The position numbers and the translations under genes were made by a program. Shown piece by piece: positions 49,339-58,620 of a stretch of DNA of 64,000 nucleotides. The notes beneath the pieces are model-generated. The model ran no database searches and was not told the DNA's origin. It was given only the letters and a program-made list of their open reading frames with translations. Positions within the stretch are counted from its first letter, which is position 1. Each line of letters begins with the position of its first letter. Origin of the DNA: Phycisphaerales bacterium (GTDB lineage: Bacteria > Planctomycetota > Phycisphaerae > Phycisphaerales > UBA1924); contig DASPKU010000001.1 in NCBI GenBank assembly GCA_035627955.1, positions 372,001 to 436,000 on the forward strand, given 5' to 3'.

Positions 49339-50766
49339 ATGCTCACCCTCGACTTCACCAACTGCCTCGCGACCCATGTCGGCTCCCACGGCCTGGACCC
49401 CGACCTGCTCGCCCCCGGCTCCGAGGTCCACAACGCCATCGCCGCCGCCACCAAGCGCCTCGCGGGCAGCCGCGGCAAGGGCTGGGAACGCTGGCGCGAG
49501 CTGCCGTTTGAGCCCATGCGCTCGCAGCACGTCAGCGCGGTCACGACGATCGCCGAGCAGTGCAGGGGCCGCTTCGACACCATGGTCGTGCTGGGCATCG
49601 GCGGCTCGGCCCTGGGCAACATCGCCCTGCAGTCCGCCCTGAACCCACCGACGTGGAACCTCTCGGACTCCGTCCGCAAGGGCGCCCCCCGCCTCTTCGT
49701 CGTCGACAACGTCGATCCCGCCTACTTCGCCAGCGTGCTCGACTTCTGCCAGCAGAGCACCGGCAACAGCGGCGGGCTCTCGAGAACCCTCTTCAACGTC
49801 ATCAGCAAGTCCGGCGAGACCGCCGAAACCGCCGCCCAGTTCATGGTCATCCGCGACCTCCTCAGCCGCACCCTCGGCAAGGACTACGCCCAGAACATCG
49901 TCGCCGTCACCGACCCCGCCAAGGGCACCATGCGGCAGATCTGCGAGCGCGAGGGTTTCACCACCCTCCCCGTCCCCGACGGCGTCGGTGGCCGCTTCAG
50001 CGTGCTCTCCCCCGTCGGCCTCTTCTCCGCCGCCATGTGCGGCATCGACAGCGACGCCCTCCTCACCGGCGCCGCCGACATGGACAAGGCGTGCGGCAAC
50101 CCCGACCTCCAGCACAACCCCGCGGCCATGCTCGCCGCGCTCCTCGTCGAGCTCGGCACCTCCAAGGGCAAGACCAACCACGTCCTCATGCCCTACAGCA
50201 ACGCCCTCTACCTCCTCGCCGACTGGTACCGCCAGCTCTGGGCCGAGAGCCTTGGTAAGGAGCACGACCTCCAGGGCAACCGCGTCTTCGCCGGCTTCAC
50301 GCCCATCAAGGCCCTGGGCACCACCGACCAGCACTCGCAGGTGCAGCTCTACCGCGAGGGCCCCAACGACAAGGTCATCGGCCTGATGGAAGTCGGGCAG
50401 TTCGACCACGACGTCACCATCCCCACCGGCCTCAACGTCGAGGCGATCGGCTACCTCGAGGGCAAGAAGATGTCCGCCCTCCTCAACGCCGAGAAGCGTG
50501 CCACCGAGTACGCCCTGCTGGAGAGCCAACGCCCCAACTTCACCCTCAAGTTCCCCAGGATCGACGCCTACCACGTCGGCCAGTTCATCAACCTCTGGCA
50601 GATCGCCACCGCCTACGCGGGGCTCCTCCTCAACGTCGACGCCTACGACCAGCCCGCCGTCGAGCTCGGCAAGCAGGCCACCTGCGGTCTCATGGGCCGC
50701 AAGGGCTACGAGAAGCACCTCTCCAGCGTTGACGAGGCCCTCGGCGGCGACCGCCGCGTTATCTGA
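49339..50766 (+). CDS. pgi: Glucose-6-phosphate isomerase
   Basis: 475 residues. Two SIS-type sugar-isomerase folds. VVLGIGGSALGNIALQSALN is the first phosphate-binding loop, TLFNVISKSGETAETAAQFM the second (S-K-[TS]-x-x-T). GVGGRFSVLSPVGLFSAAMC is the PGI signature, and TKGKTNHVLMPYSNALYL-type sequence follows. FTPIKALGTTDQHSQVQLYR carries the catalytic His region. It interconverts glucose-6-phosphate and fructose-6-phosphate in glycolysis. The length is that of the bacterial short form. ATG 49339 chosen; the in-frame upstream extension lies over a repeat. Confidence 0.95.
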   Translation: MLTLDFTNCLATHVGSHGLDPDLLAPGSEVHNAIAAATKRLAGSRGKGWERWRELPFEPMRSQHVSAVTTIAEQCRGRFDTMVVLGIGGSALGNIALQSALNPPTWNLSDSVRKGAPRLFVVDNVDPAYFASVLDFCQQSTGNSGGLSRTLFNVISKSGETAETAAQFMVIRDLLSRTLGKDYAQNIVAVTDPAKGTMRQICEREGFTTLPVPDGVGGRFSVLSPVGLFSAAMCGIDSDALLTGAADMDKACGNPDLQHNPAAMLAALLVELGTSKGKTNHVLMPYSNALYLLADWYRQLWAESLGKEHDLQGNRVFAGFTPIKALGTTDQHSQVQLYREGPNDKVIGLMEVGQFDHDVTIPTGLNVEAIGYLEGKKMSALLNAEKRATEYALLESQRPNFTLKFPRIDAYHVGQFINLWQIATAYAGLLLNVDAYDQPAVELGKQATCGLMGRKGYEKHLSSVDEALGGDRRVI

Positions 50767-50864
50767 CGCTTCCTCCCCCGTGGGGGGAGGGCCGCGGAGT
50801 GGTTGGCGCCTCCACGCTGCAACTTCCGCAACAAACCAACCACCCAAAGCCGTAAACTCCCCCC

Positions 50865-51674
50865 ATGGCCCGCTGGTTCGGCCCATACCGCCTCGTCCGC
50901 GCCCTCGAGCCCACCCGCGTGGGCCCGCGCGAGAGCAACCCGGTCCGCTCGCCCCAGGCGCTGCGCTGGTCCGCCGTGCACGAGCGCGAGACCTCCGGCC
51001 ACCTCGTCTACACCCTCGAGCTCGCCAAGCACCGCCTCAACGCCCGCCGCTTCACCAGCGCTCTCGAGGCGATCTCCGTCCTCCGCCACGCCCACGTCCT
51101 CCCCATCGAGACCTACGCCCTCGACGAGCAATGGGGCGGCGTCGTGGTCTCGCCCTACCTCGGCGACCCCGGCGGCGTTGTCACCCTCGACGAGCTCGTC
51201 GAGGCTAAGGGCGGCCGCATGGACCCCTTCGAGGTCCAGCGCTCCGCCACCCACATGCTCGAGGCCCTCGCCGCGGCCCACAGCTGCGGCCTCGCCGACG
51301 GCAACCTCTGGCTCGACCGCGTCCACGTCGACCCCCGCGGCTCCCTCCACATCGAGCTCCTGGGCCTCTGGCGCGAGATGTGGCGCGGCGGCGACGTCGC
51401 CGAAGTCGTCGCCCGTGACGACGTCCGCTCCGTCGCCGCCATGGCCTTCCGCATGCTCACCGGCGTCGAGCACGGCACCGGCCCCGGCGCCCCACTCGAC
51501 CGCCGCTGGGAGCACTGGCTCCGCCGCGGCCTCGACCCCATCGACGGCTTCACCACCGCCGAAGAAGCCCTCCGCGAGCTCCCCTCCGGCCAGGCCGTCG
51601 CAAAGTCCATGGGCGCTTCTGGCGCACTCCGCACCGCCGCCGGCCGCGTCCGCGCCGCCCTCTTGAGCCTTTAG
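50865..51674 (+). CDS. Protein kinase-like pseudokinase
   Basis: 269 residues with the layout of a Ser/Thr kinase domain. FGPYRLVRALEPTRVGPRES stands where the Gly-rich loop should be, LVYTLELAKHRL the beta-3 strand, ISVLRHAHVLPIETYALDEQ the helix C to beta-4 region and GVVVSPYLGDPGGVVTLDEL the hinge. AAHSCGLADGNLWLDRVHVD is in place of the catalytic loop. Compared with H-[RG]-D-x-K-P-x-N, the His, Asp, Lys and Asn all differ (Asp, Asn, Trp, Arg), and no D-F-G is seen. It is most likely catalytically dead and may be a scaffold or regulator. No signal peptide. Confidence 0.7.
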   Translation: MARWFGPYRLVRALEPTRVGPRESNPVRSPQALRWSAVHERETSGHLVYTLELAKHRLNARRFTSALEAISVLRHAHVLPIETYALDEQWGGVVVSPYLGDPGGVVTLDELVEAKGGRMDPFEVQRSATHMLEALAAAHSCGLADGNLWLDRVHVDPRGSLHIELLGLWREMWRGGDVAEVVARDDVRSVAAMAFRMLTGVEHGTGPGAPLDRRWEHWLRRGLDPIDGFTTAEEALRELPSGQAVAKSMGASGALRTAAGRVRAALLSL

Positions 51675-51696
51675 CAACACACCGCAAACGCCGCGC

Positions 51697-53706
51697 TCAC
51701 CCACCCGGCTTCGGGTTCTCCGCCGCACGTCTCGCTTCGTCCGCCGCGTTGATCTCCGCCCTCAGCAGGTCCAGCGTCGCCCGCTGCTCCATCGTCAGCA
51801 CCGACGCGAACCGCTGCTCGATCTCCGCCAGGATCGCCCCGCCCTGCTCCTTCGAAGCCGCCAGCTGCAACCCCCGGATCCACGCCTCCGCCGGCACCTG
51901 GAATGGCCGCGCCAGCTGCACCTGCCCAAGCCCCAGCAGCGCCGCGCACCGCACCGAGCTCAGCCGCTCCGACTCCACCAGCAGCTCCGCGAACGGCGCG
52001 TTGTCCAGTGCCGCCAGCGCCGCCTCCGGCTGCCGCTCCGACAGCTCCAGGTCCGCCAACTCCACGACCCCCTCGGCGATCGCCCGAAGCATCTCCGGGT
52101 CGGCCTTCTCGAACATCAGCCGCGTTGGCGACGTCAGCAGCGTCAGGAACCCCCGCCGCAGCCCCGCATCATCGATCGACCGCGAGATGTCCAGCAGCTC
52201 CCGCGCCGTCAGCGCATTCGCCGTCCGCAGCAGCGTCGGCATCGCCAACTCCGCCGAAGGTCGCGGCAGCAGCAGCAGCCACCGCACCGCCCCCTCCGTC
52301 GGCTCCGCGGCCAGCACGCTCCGGCAGGCGACATCGAACAGGTCCGCGTCCGAGGCAGCGGCCTCCAGGATCGCCTCGCTGAACTCGGGGTACCACACCA
52401 GCGCCTCGCCCGCTGCCTGCCGCGTGGCCGCACGAAGAGACCGCAGCAGTGGCACGATCCGCGCACGGTCCTCATCGGTTCCCAGCGCCGACAGCAGCGA
52501 AATCGCCGCGGGCGTCAACGCCTCCTCCCCCGCCGCCCGCGCCGCGCTCAACACCGCCGCGGCCGCCTCCCCCTGCAGCAACCCCGCCCGGAACAGCCAC
52601 CGCGCCGCCTCGAAGGCCGACTCCCCCGCCCCGCTCCCCGGTGCAACCCATCGCAACACCGCAGCCACCACCTGCTCGCTCGGCCAACGCGCCGCCGCCA
52701 GCAGCAGGTCCGACGCCGCCGCCGAGTCCGTCTCCCTCGCCAGGGCCCGCGCAATCGGTTCGGCCGCGCCGTCCGGCGCCAGCTGCCGCACCAGCACCGC
52801 GGCGCTCGCCCGCGTCCGCGGGTCCGCGTGCTCGAGCAACTGCAGCGCGGCCACGCCGACAGGTCCGTCCATCCGGCCCGTCACCGACATCTCGCGGCTG
52901 ACCAGTTCAAACCCGAGCGTCCGCACCTCGGATGCGTCATTCAGCAGCAGCGATGCCAGATACGCCGGCCGCTCCTCCGCAGGCGTCGCCAGATGCAGCT
53001 TCCGCAGCGCCTCCACCAGCTGCCCGATCGCCAGCTGTCGCGATGCCTCCGTCCGCCGCTCCTTGGCCGTGAGTGCATCGAGCAGCCGTGCCCGCCACTG
53101 GCTGTCTGTCAGGGCCTCGTGCTCGGCCACGAAAGCGGTCCACCGCCTCGCTTCCGCTGGGATGTCGTCCCGCGCTGAAAGCCGCGTCAGCGCCCCCACG
53201 GCCGCCTGCTGAAGCCGGGGCTCGACACCCTCCGCCAGGTACCGCCCCAATATCCGCACCGAGTCCCGCGTCCGGTACGATCCCATGACCTCGATCAGAA
53301 CGAAGGCTTCATCCGAGGGCGCCGAAGCCAGCCGCTGCGTCACGCAGGGGAACAGCCGCATCGGCGCATCCGCCATCTCCGACAGGGCACTCAGCACGCC
53401 CCGCCACGCCGGCCCAGCGGGCCCAGACACCACCCGCTGAATCTCCGCCCGCACGCCCGCATGCTCTGCGAATGCAATCAGTTCGCGCCCGGCACTCAGC
53501 CGTGCCGCCGGGGTCGCTTCCGGGTCGTCCAGCACCGCCATTGCCGCACGCGCCGCACCCGGCAACTCCGGGGCCGCCTGGATCGGCCGGAACGGCTGCA
53601 CCGCAGGCGCCGGCACAGCGAGCCCCGCGCACGCAATCACCGCGCCCGCGGGCGCGAGCCACAACGTCCCAGCCCTCAGCACCCTTTTGCTGATGCCCAC
53701 GACCAT
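51697..53706 (-). CDS. Secreted or anchored HEAT-like helical-repeat protein
   Basis: 669 residues from ATG 53706. The N-terminal hydrophobic segment (TLWLAPAGAVIACAGLAVPA, possible cleavage after APA) marks export or anchoring. The rest is an alpha-solenoid: repeated helix pairs of ~35 residues such as SVRILGRYLAEGVEPRLQQA, LLEHADPRTRASAAVLVRQL and IVPLLRSLRAATRQAAGEAL, reminiscent of HEAT/PBS-lyase repeats. No catalytic motif. Probably a protein-binding scaffold in the periplasm; family not recognised. Convergent with the pseudokinase gene (22 bp between stops) and downstream of the TrpB-like gene on the same strand. Confidence 0.72.
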   Translation of the reverse strand: MVVGISKRVLRAGTLWLAPAGAVIACAGLAVPAPAVQPFRPIQAAPELPGAARAAMAVLDDPEATPAARLSAGRELIAFAEHAGVRAEIQRVVSGPAGPAWRGVLSALSEMADAPMRLFPCVTQRLASAPSDEAFVLIEVMGSYRTRDSVRILGRYLAEGVEPRLQQAAVGALTRLSARDDIPAEARRWTAFVAEHEALTDSQWRARLLDALTAKERRTEASRQLAIGQLVEALRKLHLATPAEERPAYLASLLLNDASEVRTLGFELVSREMSVTGRMDGPVGVAALQLLEHADPRTRASAAVLVRQLAPDGAAEPIARALARETDSAAASDLLLAAARWPSEQVVAAVLRWVAPGSGAGESAFEAARWLFRAGLLQGEAAAAVLSAARAAGEEALTPAAISLLSALGTDEDRARIVPLLRSLRAATRQAAGEALVWYPEFSEAILEAAASDADLFDVACRSVLAAEPTEGAVRWLLLLPRPSAELAMPTLLRTANALTARELLDISRSIDDAGLRRGFLTLLTSPTRLMFEKADPEMLRAIAEGVVELADLELSERQPEAALAALDNAPFAELLVESERLSSVRCAALLGLGQVQLARPFQVPAEAWIRGLQLAASKEQGGAILAEIEQRFASVLTMEQRATLDLLRAEINAADEARRAAENPKPGG

Positions 53707-53775
53707 GCCGACACTCCGGCCACTCGCACGGGGCGCCCCCCGCACGCAACATCCTACACCTGGTTCAGAAAAACC

Positions 53776-55068
53776 CTACGCGCGATTCGACAACTTTGAC
53801 ACGAGTTCAACGTCTTTGTCGCCGCGCCCTATCAGATTGACCACGATGTTCTGATCCGCCTTCATCTCGCCTGCGAGCCGGAGCGCCTCCGCCAGGCCGT
53901 GCCCCGCCTCGATCGACGCGATGATGCCCTCCGTGCGGGCCAGTAGGGTGAGGGCGTGGATCGCCTCGTCGTCGCCCGCCACCGTGTACTTCACCCGCCC
54001 CAGGTCCTTCCAGTACGCGTGCTCCGGCGGGGCGAAGTGGTACTCCATCGCCTTCGATATCGACGATACCGGCAGCGTCATCCCGCCCTCCATCGAGAGG
54101 GCGTACGTCGTCTGGCCCAGCACCGTCTCACGCCGTCCCATGCTCAGCGGGGCCGCGTGATCGCCCGGCGCGCCCGACTTTCCACCCGCCTCCACCCCCA
54201 CCAGCTTCACGCCCGTGTCATCCACGAACGGGTAGAACAGCCCCGCAGCCTCGGCCCCCACGCCCACGCAGGACACGATCACGTCCGGCAACTTGGTCAG
54301 GTTCCGCAGCGACTGCGCCTTGGTCTCCCGCCCCAGGATTGACTGGAAGTCCCGCACCATCGCCGGGAACGGGTGCGGCCCAACCGCCCCCGACGGCACC
54401 AGCATCGCCCCGCCGGGGTTCCGCAGCCACTCCTCCATCGCCCCCGTCAGCGCCGCCGTGCGGTCGCCGACCTCGCTGACCTTCGCCCCCAGGAACCGCG
54501 CCCGCGCGACGTCACTGATCCGCGCCTCATCGGCCGGACACAGCACCTGCGCCTCGAGCCCGAAGTGCGCCGCCGCCGTCGCCACTGCCACCGCGTGCGG
54601 CCCGCCCCCGCTCACCGCGATCAGCCGCTTCCGCCCGCTGCTCGCCGCGAACAGTGCAAATCCCGCCGCGTGGTTGATCGCGGCAGAGCCCGGGTACGCG
54701 AGGTCCTCTCGCTTCAGCCAGATCCGAGCCCCTTCGCCCTTGGGCAGCCGCGACCGCGCCTGGGCCGTCAATCCCGCGGCCTCATACAAAGGCGTCGCCC
54801 GCCCGGCCAACGTCCGCAGGTGCACCAGCAACTCGTCCCAGAACCCCGCATCCGACGCCGCCCGCGCGTACGCCGCGTCCAGCTGCTGGAGCGGCCCCTT
54901 CGCCGCCTCGGGCACGAACGCCCCGCCATACGACCCGAACATCCCCTCCGGAGAGGGCACATCCGAGACCTTGGGCGGCGGCGCCGGCTTCGGTGGAATC
55001 GAATGGGCAGCCCCGTTGGAGGGGTTCCGGGGGGTCTGGGCGGGGGGCCTCATATCAGTGGTATTCAT
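53776..55068 (-). CDS. Tryptophan synthase beta-chain homolog lacking the PLP lysine (pseudoenzyme)
   Basis: 430 residues, colinear with TrpB over its full length (GSYGGAFVPEA, WLKREDLAYPG, VPSGAVGPHPFPAMVRDFQS, ILGRETKAQ, VVNLIGRGDKDVELV). The key residues are changed. The G-A-H-K-(T/I)-N motif with the PLP Schiff-base lysine reads G-S-A-A-I-N (Ala130 in place of Lys). The A-E-T-G-A-G-Q-H-G motif with the catalytic Glu reads AVSGGGPHA (Val152). The PLP-phosphate loop G-G-G-S-N is GVGAE. The first ~40 residues form a Pro-rich extension. Standard TrpB chemistry is therefore impossible. No trpA or other trp gene is adjacent. It may be a regulatory or scaffold paralog of a real TrpB elsewhere. 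Confidence 0.85.
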   Translation of the reverse strand: MNTTDMRPPAQTPRNPSNGAAHSIPPKPAPPPKVSDVPSPEGMFGSYGGAFVPEAAKGPLQQLDAAYARAASDAGFWDELLVHLRTLAGRATPLYEAAGLTAQARSRLPKGEGARIWLKREDLAYPGSAAINHAAGFALFAASSGRKRLIAVSGGGPHAVAVATAAAHFGLEAQVLCPADEARISDVARARFLGAKVSEVGDRTAALTGAMEEWLRNPGGAMLVPSGAVGPHPFPAMVRDFQSILGRETKAQSLRNLTKLPDVIVSCVGVGAEAAGLFYPFVDDTGVKLVGVEAGGKSGAPGDHAAPLSMGRRETVLGQTTYALSMEGGMTLPVSSISKAMEYHFAPPEHAYWKDLGRVKYTVAGDDEAIHALTLLARTEGIIASIEAGHGLAEALRLAGEMKADQNIVVNLIGRGDKDVELVSKLSNRA

Positions 55069-55143
55069 CGCCGGGCCAGCTGGTTCGGCTTGAGAACCCT
55101 CCAGCTGGTTTTTTCCTCCGGTCAGGCCCGTGCGGGCCGGCAG

Positions 55144-56532
55144 TCACCGGGACCCAGAGTCCGCTGAGCGGCGGGTCGGTGCAAGCTCGGTGTCCCGGGC
55201 CAGATACCGGGCTCCGCGGTACCAGCACACCCCCGCGAGGAAGATCGTGACCCCCACCACGTTGAACGCGAGGTTCATGTTCCCCCGCCCATCGTCCGTT
55301 TTGAACCGATCCGTGATCGCCCCGATGAGCGGCGGTGAGATCGCGTCCCCAAGCGCATGAAGCACCAGGATGGCAACCGCGTACCCGGTCGCTCGCATCC
55401 CCGGCGGCACCACGTTCGCAATCACCGTATTCGTCGGCCCCGTGTTCATAAACGCCAGGAAAAGGCACGCCCCCATCGCCACCCACGCCCACGGGAACGG
55501 CGCGTGGAGCACCAGCAGGAAGAACGGGAACGCCGCCATCATCGCCCAACCCGACAGCTTCAGGTAGGCACCCCCGCCCTTGAGCCGCGGCCTCAGCCAA
55601 TCCCCCAGGTAACCTCCGACGATGGTCCCCGCCAGACCCGTCACCACCGTGATCCCGCCGAAGATCAGGTTGATGTCCGCGAGCTGAGCCTGCCCCGCCG
55701 CGTCCGTCCCTCCCCGCATGCGGAACTCGTGGATATACGTCGGCATCCAGAACGACATCCCACCCACCGCAAACGTCATCAGCGTCATGCCCGCAAGGTT
55801 CCACAGGTACGACGGGATCTTGAACAGCAGCAGCGCATCCTGGAACCGGAACCGGTGCGTGCTTGGCACCTTTTCCGCTGCCCCCCGCGGCGGGTCTTTC
55901 CGGAACAAGGCCCATGCCCCCAGCAGCAGCCCCGGCGGCATCACGATCAGGAACGCCCAGCGCCAGCCCTCACGCGCGTCCAGCCCGATCTGCGGCCCGT
56001 AGCCGTTCATCAGCTTTGCCACCTGCCCGCCGATCACGTACCCCAGGGCGCTCCCCACCGGCAGCGCAACGTTGAACCACGCCAGCACGGTGCCGCGCTT
56101 CTCAACCGGGTACATGTCCGCGATCACCGTCGGCGCGATCGGCCCCCAGGCCGCCTCCCCCACCCCGACCAGGATGCGGAAGAACAGCAGCATGCTGAAC
56201 GACGACGCCAGCCCGCACGCCCCCGTCGCCAGCGACCACAGCACCACCCCGACGCCGATGATCGTCCACCGCTTCATGCGGTCGCCCATCCAACCAAAGA
56301 GCGGCGCCGCCAGCATGTACGTCACCAGGAACGCCGTCGCCAGCAGCCCCATCTGCCCCTTGGCGTTCGGGTCACCCTTCTGAAAGAACGCGTCCCGGAC
56401 CAGCGGCTCCACCGACGACAGCACGTACCGGTCGATGTAGTTGATCAGGTTGATCGCGATCAGGATCGCAACCGACACCCGCGCCACCCGCAGCGGAACA
56501 GACATCCCCGTCGGCGTCCCGATCACACTCAT
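55144..56532 (-). CDS. MFS transporter, Spinster-like
   Basis: 462 residues from ATG 56532, twelve predicted membrane helices. The first helix VAILIAINLINYIDRYVLSS and the loop FGWMGDRMKRWTIIGVGVVL (G-x-x-x-D-R-x-x-R/K motif A) are MFS hallmarks. FRILVGVGEAAWGPIAPTVI is the R-x-x-x-G-x-G-E-A motif of the Spinster (Spns)-like branch. A longer central cytoplasmic loop separates helices 6 and 7 (RKDPPRGAAEKVPSTHRF). Bacterial members are often placed near catabolic hydrolases; substrate unknown. The start could also be ATG 56505. The dienelactone-hydrolase-like gene is 60 bp upstream on the same strand. Confidence 0.9.
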   Translation of the reverse strand: MSVIGTPTGMSVPLRVARVSVAILIAINLINYIDRYVLSSVEPLVRDAFFQKGDPNAKGQMGLLATAFLVTYMLAAPLFGWMGDRMKRWTIIGVGVVLWSLATGACGLASSFSMLLFFRILVGVGEAAWGPIAPTVIADMYPVEKRGTVLAWFNVALPVGSALGYVIGGQVAKLMNGYGPQIGLDAREGWRWAFLIVMPPGLLLGAWALFRKDPPRGAAEKVPSTHRFRFQDALLLFKIPSYLWNLAGMTLMTFAVGGMSFWMPTYIHEFRMRGGTDAAGQAQLADINLIFGGITVVTGLAGTIVGGYLGDWLRPRLKGGGAYLKLSGWAMMAAFPFFLLVLHAPFPWAWVAMGACLFLAFMNTGPTNTVIANVVPPGMRATGYAVAILVLHALGDAISPPLIGAITDRFKTDDGRGNMNLAFNVVGVTIFLAGVCWYRGARYLARDTELAPTRRSADSGSR

Positions 56533-56592
56533 CGGGCGGGAGGGTATGCGGGTGGCACGCCCCGCCCCCGCGATTGTGCTTACCACTGGCCT

Positions 56593-57423
56593 TCACACGT
56601 ACTTCTTCAGAAACTCCACCTGCAGGTTCTTCGCATCATTACTCACCCGCCCGAAGCCGATGTGCTCCTGCGGCGCCCCCGTCTCGGGCCAGGTGTGAAG
56701 TTGCACCAGCCCAGGGTCCGCGTACGCCTGCTTGTACCGCCCCCGCAGCGCATCCACGAACGACCGCATCGAAGCAACCGGCACCACCTGGTCCGCCTCG
56801 CTGTGCAGCGCCAGCAGCGGGATCGGCCGGAACCCGCGCAGGTGCTGCATCGCATCCACCTCGGCGATTTTCGCGGCGTCGTGCCGCGCGTGCCAGCCCT
56901 TCACCGGCGTCTCTACCTCCGGCGAGTGCCCGCCGTACAGGCTCATGAGGTTCCCCGTTGTCCCCTCCACCGCCGCGGCCTTGAACTCGTGCGCCTCGCA
57001 CAGCCGCCGCAGCGTCACCATCCCCCCCAGCGACATCCCCCCGATCGCCATCCGGTCCAGATCGAACGCCCCGCCCCAGTTTGGGTCCGCGAGGTGCTCG
57101 ATCACGCGGTCGACCTCCCCCACCGCCTGCCGCAGCACGTCCAGCGTCGCCTCGGGCTTCTGCATCTCCGGGTCACCCCGCTCGCCGTGCCCCGGCAGGT
57201 CCACCGCGCACGCCGCGATCCCCGCGCGGACCCACCGCAGGTACCGCCCCGGATCCAGCTCCTTGTTCGCCGTGCGACCATGCAGCCAGATCACCGTGGG
57301 CGCGGGCTCCCGCCAATTCGGGTCCGGGTGGCACAGCAGCACCGGCACCTCACCAAACCGCACCGCACGACTCTGCGCGGCCAGCGATGAGGGAAACTGC
57401 TTGAAACGGTTCTCTACCACCAA
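56593..57423 (-). CDS. Alpha/beta hydrolase, dienelactone hydrolase-like
   Basis: 276 residues. Core motifs: PTVIWLHGRTANKELDPG (oxyanion H-G), ACAVDLPGHGERGDPEM and MAIGGMSLGGMVTLRRL (G-x-S-x-G nucleophile). IPLLALHSEADQVVPVASMR is the acid loop, and PQEHIGFGRV is the catalytic His. It is similar to the cytosolic alpha/beta hydrolases and dienelactone hydrolases that act on esters or lactones. No signal peptide. The gene lies between a sugar-ABC ATPase and a Spinster-like transporter on the same strand, so a joint uptake and hydrolysis function is possible. Confidence 0.88.
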   Translation of the reverse strand: MVVENRFKQFPSSLAAQSRAVRFGEVPVLLCHPDPNWREPAPTVIWLHGRTANKELDPGRYLRWVRAGIAACAVDLPGHGERGDPEMQKPEATLDVLRQAVGEVDRVIEHLADPNWGGAFDLDRMAIGGMSLGGMVTLRRLCEAHEFKAAAVEGTTGNLMSLYGGHSPEVETPVKGWHARHDAAKIAEVDAMQHLRGFRPIPLLALHSEADQVVPVASMRSFVDALRGRYKQAYADPGLVQLHTWPETGAPQEHIGFGRVSNDAKNLQVEFLKKYV

Positions 57424-57483
57424 CCACCCTAGCCCCCGCCACCCGCTTCGTCACTCCGTCAATTCGCCACTCCCTCACTTGCC

Positions 57484-58620
57484 TCACAGCATCAGGTTCC
57501 GCCCGAACTCCCCGGGCTCGAACCAGTGCGCCTCCTCCATCGCCGGCGCCAGCACCGCCACGCTCCCGGTTCCCAGCCCCGCGTGCGACGGCACCCGCGC
57601 CACCAGCGCGTGCCGCCCAGTCGAGCAGTACACGTCCATCGCCTCGCCCAGCGGCTCCACCACCCGTACCGGCAGCTTCCATGCGTGCCACGCCCGATCG
57701 CCCTCTACAGGGATCGGCGACGCCTCGCGCAGTGCCTGCGGCCTCAAACCCAGGACAATCGGCTTCCCGACATGCGCCGCCAGCGTGTCCGCATGCCGCG
57801 GGCTCACCTTCAGCCGGTACGCCCGCCCCTCCGCATCCACCGACCCCTCCTCAAACAGCATCCCACCCGCGACAAGCACCAGCCGCCCCTCGATGAAGTT
57901 CATCGGCGGGCTGCCCACGAACCCCGCCACGAACCGGTTCGCCGGCCGCTTGTACACCTCCAGAGGGCCCCCGATCTGCTGCACCCTGCCCTTCGACATG
58001 ACCACGATCCGGTCGGCGAGCGTCATCGCCTCCTCCTGATCGTGCGTCACATAGATGCTCGTCGTCCGCAGCCGCTGGTGCAGCGCCTTGAGCTCCGCCC
58101 GCATCGACACCCGCAGCCGCGCGTCCAGGTTCGACAGCGGCTCATCAAACAGGAACGCCCGCGGCTCCCGCACTATCGCCCGCCCCACCGCCACCCGCTG
58201 CCGCTGCCCGCCCGACAGCTCCCGCGGCTTCCTCTCCAGCAGTTCCTCAATCCCCAGCGTCCGCGCCGTGTCCTTCACCCGCCGATCAATCTCAAGCCGC
58301 CCCACGCCCCGCATCTTGAGCGCAAACGCCATGTTCCTGTACACCGTCATGTGCGGGTACAACGCGTAGTTCTGGAACACCATCGCGATGTCGCGGTCCT
58401 TGGGGGCCACGTCGTTCACGATCCGCCCGCCGATGGCGATCGTCCCTCCGGTCAGCCCCTCCAGCCCCGCCAGCATTCGCAGCACCGTCGACTTCCCGCA
58501 CCCGCTCGGCCCCACCAGCACGATGAACTCACCATCGCGCACCTCCAGCGAGAACCCCTCCACGGCCGCCGTCCGCCCGTCGTACGACTTGCTCACGCTG
58601 TCAAACGTCACGCTCGCCAT
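57484..58620 (-). CDS. ABC transporter ATP-binding protein, UgpC/MalK type
   Basis: 378 residues. Complete nucleotide-binding domain: Walker [21 protein letters not shown]-loop [20 protein letters not shown], signature [20 protein letters not shown], Walker [16 protein letters not shown] and H-loop [21 protein letters not shown]-terminal TOBE/MalK-like regulatory domain follows ([20 protein letters not shown] ... [10 protein letters not shown]). Such ATPases energise sugar or glycerol-phosphate importers and can serve several permeases. No permease or binding protein is adjacent, so it probably works with systems elsewhere. Its start lies at the edge of a long inverted repeat. Confidence 0.93.

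Follow-up and report, generated by a model that had tools for sequence, protein, structure and literature searches.

A lysine-less TrpB homologue of a Phycisphaerales bacterium and the apparently convergent loss of catalytic residues from tryptophan enzymes in its family

The window, a stretch of 64,000 nucleotides from the genome of a Phycisphaerales bacterium, encodes on its minus strand a full-length, lysine-less TrpB homologue of 430 amino acids (P0001, 53776..55068; ORF call, profile and structure matches). Related genomes hold TrpB, TrpC and TrpF proteins with comparable losses of catalytic residues. In the explanation that we favour, to which we give a probability of about 0.48, loss of the tryptophan pathway freed the active sites of these enzymes and selection keeps their folds for a non-catalytic role.

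P0001 and its locus

The open reading frame begins with ATG and runs through 430 codons without a stop. A first-pass annotation, made from the letters alone, had described an intact frame with TrpB homology along its whole length. Both descriptions held: TIGR00263, the PALP profile (PF00291, 110 bits) and PDB chains of the TrpB1 type (E 2e-102 to 7e-60) match P0001 from end to end. The TIGR00263 score, 338.9 bits, lies under the model cut-off of 392.45, so that P0001 does not count as an equivalog. The structure prediction proposed in the annotation yielded a TrpB fold (fold type II) with a pLDDT of 80.9 and a pTM of 0.82. The best 50 structural matches of the model are all TrpB or TrpAB (Z 53.1-56.6 over 374-391 residues, rmsd 1.6-2.7), headed by the TrpB of S. 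pneumoniae (Z 56.6, 387 residues, rmsd 1.7). Mean pLDDT is 63 at residues 121-130, the block that holds the lysine site. The Pro-rich N-terminal extension (residues 1-41, 54946..55068, minus strand) has a pLDDT below 50 in residues 1-31 and is not confidently folded. It is present as annotated but not peculiar to P0001, since similar extensions occur in G002, which keeps the lysine (called ORF of 430 aa), and in G033, which has lost it (423 aa).

Residue numbers follow Salmonella TrpB numbering. Twenty-three positions, which we take from TrpB structures to form the active site, were fixed ahead of counting; 22 of them, with columns conserved to 95% or more among 71 lysine-bearing TrpBs, were used. 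The alignment comprised 78 TrpB rows, five lysine-less and 73 lysine-bearing; two of the latter (G001 and G041), from which few residues had been extracted, were dropped. P0001 departs from the consensus at 14 of the 22 columns, each of the 71 lysine-bearing TrpBs at 0 of 22. The alignment confirmed the replacements that had been read from the sequence: His86 and Lys87, the PLP Schiff-base lysine, by Ala-Ala (codons 129-130, 54679..54684, minus strand like all features of this section; coordinates derived from residue numbers), the catalytic Glu109 by Val (codon 152, 54613..54615) and the phosphate loop GGGSN by GVGAE (codons 269-273, 54250..54264). Asp305 is replaced by Glu (codon 342, 54043..54045) and Ser377, presumably the contact to the PLP pyridine, by Ile (codon 413, 53830..53832). 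Further changes are Gln114 to Pro, Gly189 to Ser, Ser190 to Gly and Gly303 to Ala. The COMM/TrpA-contact segment (approximately 54439..54537) carries three short in-frame deletions and has lost the equivalents of Arg141 (replaced by Ile) and Lys167 (deleted); 10 of the 19 conserved columns that we take to contact TrpA are changed. Gly111, Gly113, His115, Gly232, Gly234, Tyr306, Glu350, Gly378 and the GRGDKD motif are retained.

P0001 has the predicted fold of an enzyme without the catalytic residues, which is the general mark of a pseudoenzyme. Judged from its residues, catalysis by the TrpB mechanism would be impossible for a protein that lacks the PLP lysine and the phosphate loop. A sequencing or assembly error was rejected as the cause, because the substitutions are many and concordant, the gene lies in a 539-kb contig, and TrpC and TrpF, encoded on two other contigs, lack catalytic residues too.

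The next gene, 30 nt downstream of P0001 (51697..53745), encodes a 682-aa protein with no Pfam match, whose homologue in G091 has HEAT matches slightly below the Pfam cut-off. Upstream of P0001, at a distance of 75 nt, lies an MFS transporter gene (55144..56586), followed by an alpha/beta hydrolase gene (56593..57423). In live relatives such as G146, G098 and G102 trpB has beside it genes homologous to those for the 682-aa protein and the MFS transporter (50-53% identity for the latter), and a 682-aa homologue adjoins it also in G002, G033 and G091. In G002 and G033 an Atg22-type MFS gene lies by trpB, with no match to the MFS gene of the window. Alpha/beta hydrolase homologues were found near trpB in G033 and near an eroded copy in G020, and the lysine-less trpB of G181 has no called neighbour in common with the other lysine-less loci. 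In our reading P0001 is encoded by the lineage's own trpB, still in its ancestral place. There was no Rfam match at 50000-58000.

Tryptophan genes in the source genome and its family

The assembly of the source genome (G000) measures 4.26 Mb in 23 contigs and is 95.67% complete. Among TrpBs of named genomes the one that scores best comes from a member of the Planctomycetota, and three loci named as Phycisphaerales or Phycisphaerae show 72-73% identity to genomes of that order. P0001 is its sole TrpB match; a PF00291 search returned only two other strong relatives of the fold. A genome search with PF00290 found no TrpA, which 148 of the 163 family genomes have, and a search for TrpD was likewise negative. 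TrpC scores 165 bits, against 218-258 for the 27 live TrpCs that were read, and has lost ExK (to QxM), K110, the second catalytic lysine (to W), and ESG (to EAA). TrpF reaches 70 bits, where the proteins of six live genomes score 126-158, and its general-acid Asp is replaced by Gln. Since TrpA and TrpD were not found and TrpC and TrpF lack catalytic residues, the source bacterium is very probably unable to make tryptophan. The annotation had suggested that P0001 might be a partner or sensor of the true tryptophan synthase. This idea fails: the genuine trpB and trpA were sought in the genome and neither was found, and the TrpA-contact segment of P0001 has itself lost residues.

A search with P0001 gave a TrpB match in 150 of the 163 family genomes. 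A scan of the 163 for the pattern G-[AS]-H-K-x-N was positive in 145, two of which (G108 and G165) have no TrpB match, and motif and match occur together in 143 of the 150. The seven exceptions are full-length lysine-less proteins in G000, G033, G091 and G181, contig-edge fragments in G015 and G152, which end short of the lysine site, and a weak match in G066 (E 8e-5). With an eroded second copy in G020 (G020n) the family has at least five lysine-less TrpBs, with AA, EA, HH, CC and AS at residues 86-87. The G020 copy, which is the native one, is heavily eroded, and the C-terminus of the G181 protein is visibly so. P0001 shares up to 54-55% identity with the TrpBs of live relatives. The annotation had named retention of the lysine in orthologues as an outcome that would speak for an error or a single decayed copy. 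Relatives that hold the pathway genes do retain it, but G033, G091, G181 and G020n have lost it.

TrpD was absent from eight of 14 genomes searched (G000, G033, G091, G181, G014, G028, G085 and G093). TrpA was present in one of these eight (G033), TrpB in four, TrpC in six and TrpF in six; the genomes had been selected for missing TrpA or the lysine, and these counts are biased by that choice. A test of TrpD/TrpA against TrpB/C/F retention in the eight genomes (p=0.0002) was discarded as circular, the genomes being defined by missing genes. The P0001 search of the 163 genomes found no TrpB match in G014, G028, G085 and G093, and the TrpC search found no match in G033 and G181. G031 and G118 gave no TrpB, TrpA or TrpC match in the family searches.

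From the 150 genomes with a TrpC match, 34 native-type TrpCs and one foreign-type TrpC were read. Seven of the 34 are dead, namely those of six TrpD-less genomes and a second copy in G020. Each of the seven has lost at least one of ExK and K110; the 27 live ones keep E, K, K110, Glu and ESG. A ResA/TlpA-like thioredoxin-domain gene (L182:6633-8111) adjoins trpC in live and dead lineages. Downstream of the dead TrpC, on the same strand, a ResA/TlpA-like match was found in six of the seven genomes; in G085 there was none in the stretch examined around the gene. TrpCs without the GFPH insert of the other aligned TrpCs occur in G178, G179 and G180 (L190-L192); they branch apart, which suggests replacement by transfer. 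Among six weak TrpFs the general acid is lost in four, one of which is also without Cys7, and G093 and G028 keep both residues, so that death of TrpF is not universal. The only TrpA among the TrpD-less genomes, that of G033 (C8:79097-79840, L178), has Glu for Asp60, which by our numbering is presumably the catalytic Asp; to judge by this residue it is probably inactive as well.

In G020 a foreign-looking trpD-C-B-A cluster with a TrpB of a different type lies on one contig (C57:27723-31513, L199). That it shares the genome with the eroded TrpB and the dead TrpC suggests a pathway regained by transfer once the old genes had decayed. In G002 trpA, trpB, trpC, trpD and trpF lie on five separate contigs. 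The affected genomes measure 3.1-4.3 Mb. HisA/HisF-level matches were absent, with only weak partial hits, from 13 of 17 family genomes tested, and histidine auxotrophy may be common in the family. The HisA/HisF-less genomes include G002, G178 and G010, which hold the trp genes searched. In the four genomes that have them hisA and hisF are adjacent and a single deletion could remove both, and this control was given little weight.

Placed on a tree built from the RpoB of 28 genomes, the nine affected genomes require six label changes, at least four of them forced by well-supported branches, and unaffected relatives sit between affected ones. G118 was scored as unaffected in this count, which is six also when it is omitted. 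The scatter argues against a single ancestral dead clade, and tryptophan enzymes appear to have died convergently in about six places of the family. The TrpCs of G014 and G085 share K53V and K110R, and their common ancestor was most likely already dead; those of G028 and G093 lack different residues, and their ancestor was probably still live. In the gene trees six of the seven dead TrpCs group (support 95/93), as do four of the five lysine-less TrpBs, where long branches meet; with the dead copies grouped in this way, the true number of origins could be smaller than the RpoB tree indicates. We tentatively read the grouping as long-branch attraction or shared relaxation. The PRAI tree, from which the second copy of G097 was left out, is not resolved. 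On the TrpB tree the P0001 branch measures 3.21 against a median of 0.33, about tenfold; this length is a sign of strong relaxation and also covers time before the pathway loss.

Distribution of changes and codon tests

In the pooled lysine-less TrpBs 60 of 110 active-site positions are changed, against 214 of 720 at other conserved columns (odds ratio 2.8, p=7e-7). In the dead TrpCs the figures are 43 of 84 and 136 of 686 (odds ratio 4.2, p=4e-9); the TrpC tests used 23 of the 27 live rows, with G178, G179, G180 and G035 omitted as divergent. P0001 alone has 14 of 22 active-site changes against 45 of 144 elsewhere (p=0.007). By single sequence the TrpB enrichment is significant for P0001, G181 and G020n and not for G033 and G091; that of TrpC reaches p<0.05 in five of seven (not in G014 and G020n).

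In TrpB, 42 of 144 conserved positions outside the active site never changed in any dead copy, where 21.5 would be expected; TrpC has 48 such positions of 98, against an expectation of 20.3. In both cases 0 of 5000 shuffles gave as many. The excess survives reduction to one row per lineage and, for TrpB, also weighting by mutability; for the TrpBs of G000 and G181 alone p is 0.002-0.003. In P0001 103 of 115 hydrophobic columns remain hydrophobic. Among the 49 that changed 38 are hydrophobic, against a single-step mutation expectation of 0.58-0.59; the p value of 0.0009 was computed with 0.55, so that the true one is larger.

No internal stop was met in the open frames read of the five lysine-less TrpBs, the seven dead TrpCs and the six weak TrpFs. 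The probability of a stop-free frame under neutrality is 0.03-0.16 for P0001 alone, depending on mutation bias. Indel runs number 13 in the dead TrpBs and 12 in the dead TrpCs (25 in total), against live means of 0.5 and 0.2 per gene; they were counted in translated open frames, where compensated frameshifts are invisible.

Near-neutral dN/dS had been named beforehand as the result that would speak against a maintained protein. In codon ML the branch of P0001, which includes time before the pathway loss, has an omega of 0.066 against a background of 0.021, and omega=1 was rejected (2ΔlnL 87.9). The TrpC pair G014/G085 gave 0.039 against 0.020 (2ΔlnL 115.0). Omega=1 was rejected also for the TrpCs of G028/G093 (179.8) and G000 (26.1) and for the TrpBs of G033/G091 (321.6) and G181 (54.2). 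It is rejected by the live control pairs too (282.3 and 196.1); the omega of one such pair, 0.034, lies near that of the dead TrpC pair. Because synonymous sites are saturated and several branch lengths stand at the ceiling of 15, the omega values are rough and only the rejection of 1 was used. There is no second genome of the same genus among the 163 family genomes, nor a close orthologue for P0001. Taken together, the site patterns and the codon tests support a TrpB fold still under selection and favour the maintained pseudoenzyme of the first-pass annotation; saturation, branch time before the loss and survivorship leave doubt.

Explanations for the retained genes and known counterparts

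Biosynthetic genes are usually expected to be deleted or broken soon after loss of their pathway. In the sequence of events that we propose, a lineage, probably planctomycete, lost tryptophan synthesis and kept its native trpB. With trpD and trpA lost, catalysis was no longer needed, and constraint was lifted from the PLP site, from the substrate loops and from the face that contacts TrpA; the substitutions seen there show it. The body of TrpB and TrpC, perhaps also TrpF, would have stayed under purifying selection, for which several statistics speak in TrpB and TrpC only. What keeps the shell in place, we infer, is a role that needs the fold but no catalysis and that the live enzymes already had, probably the binding of a protein or a small molecule. 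The protein is dispensable in G014, G028, G085 and G093, where TrpB has no match. A more far-reaching idea, which seems to us doubtful, is that in live species of the family, too, TrpB, TrpC and TrpF do something else besides catalysis, which repeated pathway loss exposes. If such a hidden function exists, convergent sets of dead enzymes would remain under selection after catalysis goes.

The main rival, which we consider unlikely, is ongoing neutral decay: the pathway is gone, the genes drift, broken copies are quickly deleted and only intact survivors are seen. Decay of this kind would agree with the very long P0001 branch, with catalytic-site substitutions that differ among lineages, with the erosion in G020 and G181, with the TrpD-less genomes that have no TrpB or no TrpC, and with the fact that one stop-free frame is not very improbable by itself. 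It agrees poorly with changes so uneven over the conserved sites and with identical sites unchanged in different lineages, with the lack of stops in all dead or weak copies of the three proteins, and with rejection of omega=1 by the G014/G085 pair, whose lost lysines are common to both. Drift apart, a dead gene might be kept translatable for expression of the next gene, and foldable to avoid aggregation. The scattered trp genes, each among unrelated genes, would suit such an arrangement, as would the conserved co-directional gene so close downstream of P0001 and the ResA/TlpA-like match behind most dead TrpCs. Yet the next called gene is convergent after the lysine-less TrpB in G033, G091 and G181, and that after G020n is on the opposite strand. 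A leader role alone predicts no shared internal residues (a cost of misfolding might), and we hold this explanation to be quite unlikely.

It is very improbable that the remodelled pocket serves a new PLP-free enzyme or ligand-binding function. The pocket is altered within a fold predicted to be intact, and some glycines and Glu350 are retained, but the replacements at residues 86-87 differ from lineage to lineage, and no common new chemistry is visible. Hardly credible is a non-catalytic activator of TrpA, like plant TSB-like acting on TSA. P0001 does lack the catalytic Glu and has Glu for Asp305, the two positions reported for TSB-like, and G033 keeps a TrpA, albeit with the change at Asp60. 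Against this, G000, G091 and G181 have no TrpA that could be found, and P0001 has Arg141 replaced, Lys167 deleted and about half of its conserved TrpA-contact columns changed. For G000 the activator is refuted, save for the case that the small part missing from the assembly encodes a TrpA. In about six places of the family enzymes appear to have lost their active sites and kept open frames and cores. Whether metabolic enzymes have hidden structural jobs can thereby be tested in relatives that have the pathway and in others that lack it, and a trpB or trpC homology match is no proof that an organism makes tryptophan.

P0001 resembles TrpB (TIGR00263, PALP fold type II) in fold, length and ancestral neighbourhood, and differs from it by the missing PLP lysine and Glu109, the broken phosphate loop, the lack of a TrpA partner among the genes found and a score under the cut-off. 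We take D386 and R222 of plant TSB-like to correspond to Asp305 and Arg141 of the Salmonella enzyme. TSB-like is described as a dead TrpB homologue that activates TSA, with the catalytic Glu replaced and an Asp-to-Glu change at D386 (Florean et al. 2025, PMC12727527). P0001 is like it in the replaced catalytic Glu (here Val) and, if the positions are matched rightly, in Asp305 to Glu; whereas TSB-like is described there as a paralogue beside a live TSB, P0001 is the only TrpB found, with no TrpA to activate (PMC12727527). TSB-like shows that a TrpB without catalysis can still be of use, but it needs TrpA.

Chlamydiae offer a second comparison. C. trachomatis is reported to keep a catalytically inactive TrpEa (TrpA), and the trp remnant of C. 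muridarum is said to be without catalytic residues (PMC3937554). Those are host-bound bacteria for which one such protein each is described there (PMC3937554); here two to three enzymes are concerned, in several lineages with genomes of 3.1-4.3 Mb. PriA of the Actinomycetaceae is described as a 'retained enzyme driven by gene loss', on which purifying selection is relaxed since the pathway was lost (PMC5404923). It is like the present case as a trp/his enzyme kept after the pathway had gone, and unlike it in that the PriA homologues are described there as monofunctional, inefficient isomerases, still enzymes (PMC5404923), whereas here the catalytic residues are gone. A full-text literature search, with most subscription papers outside its range, found no publication on convergent dead TrpB, TrpC and TrpF in bacterial auxotrophs. 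The dead tryptophan enzymes of these pathway-less lineages belong with the pseudoenzymes, a known kind, of which the convergent multi-enzyme pattern is apparently a new variant.
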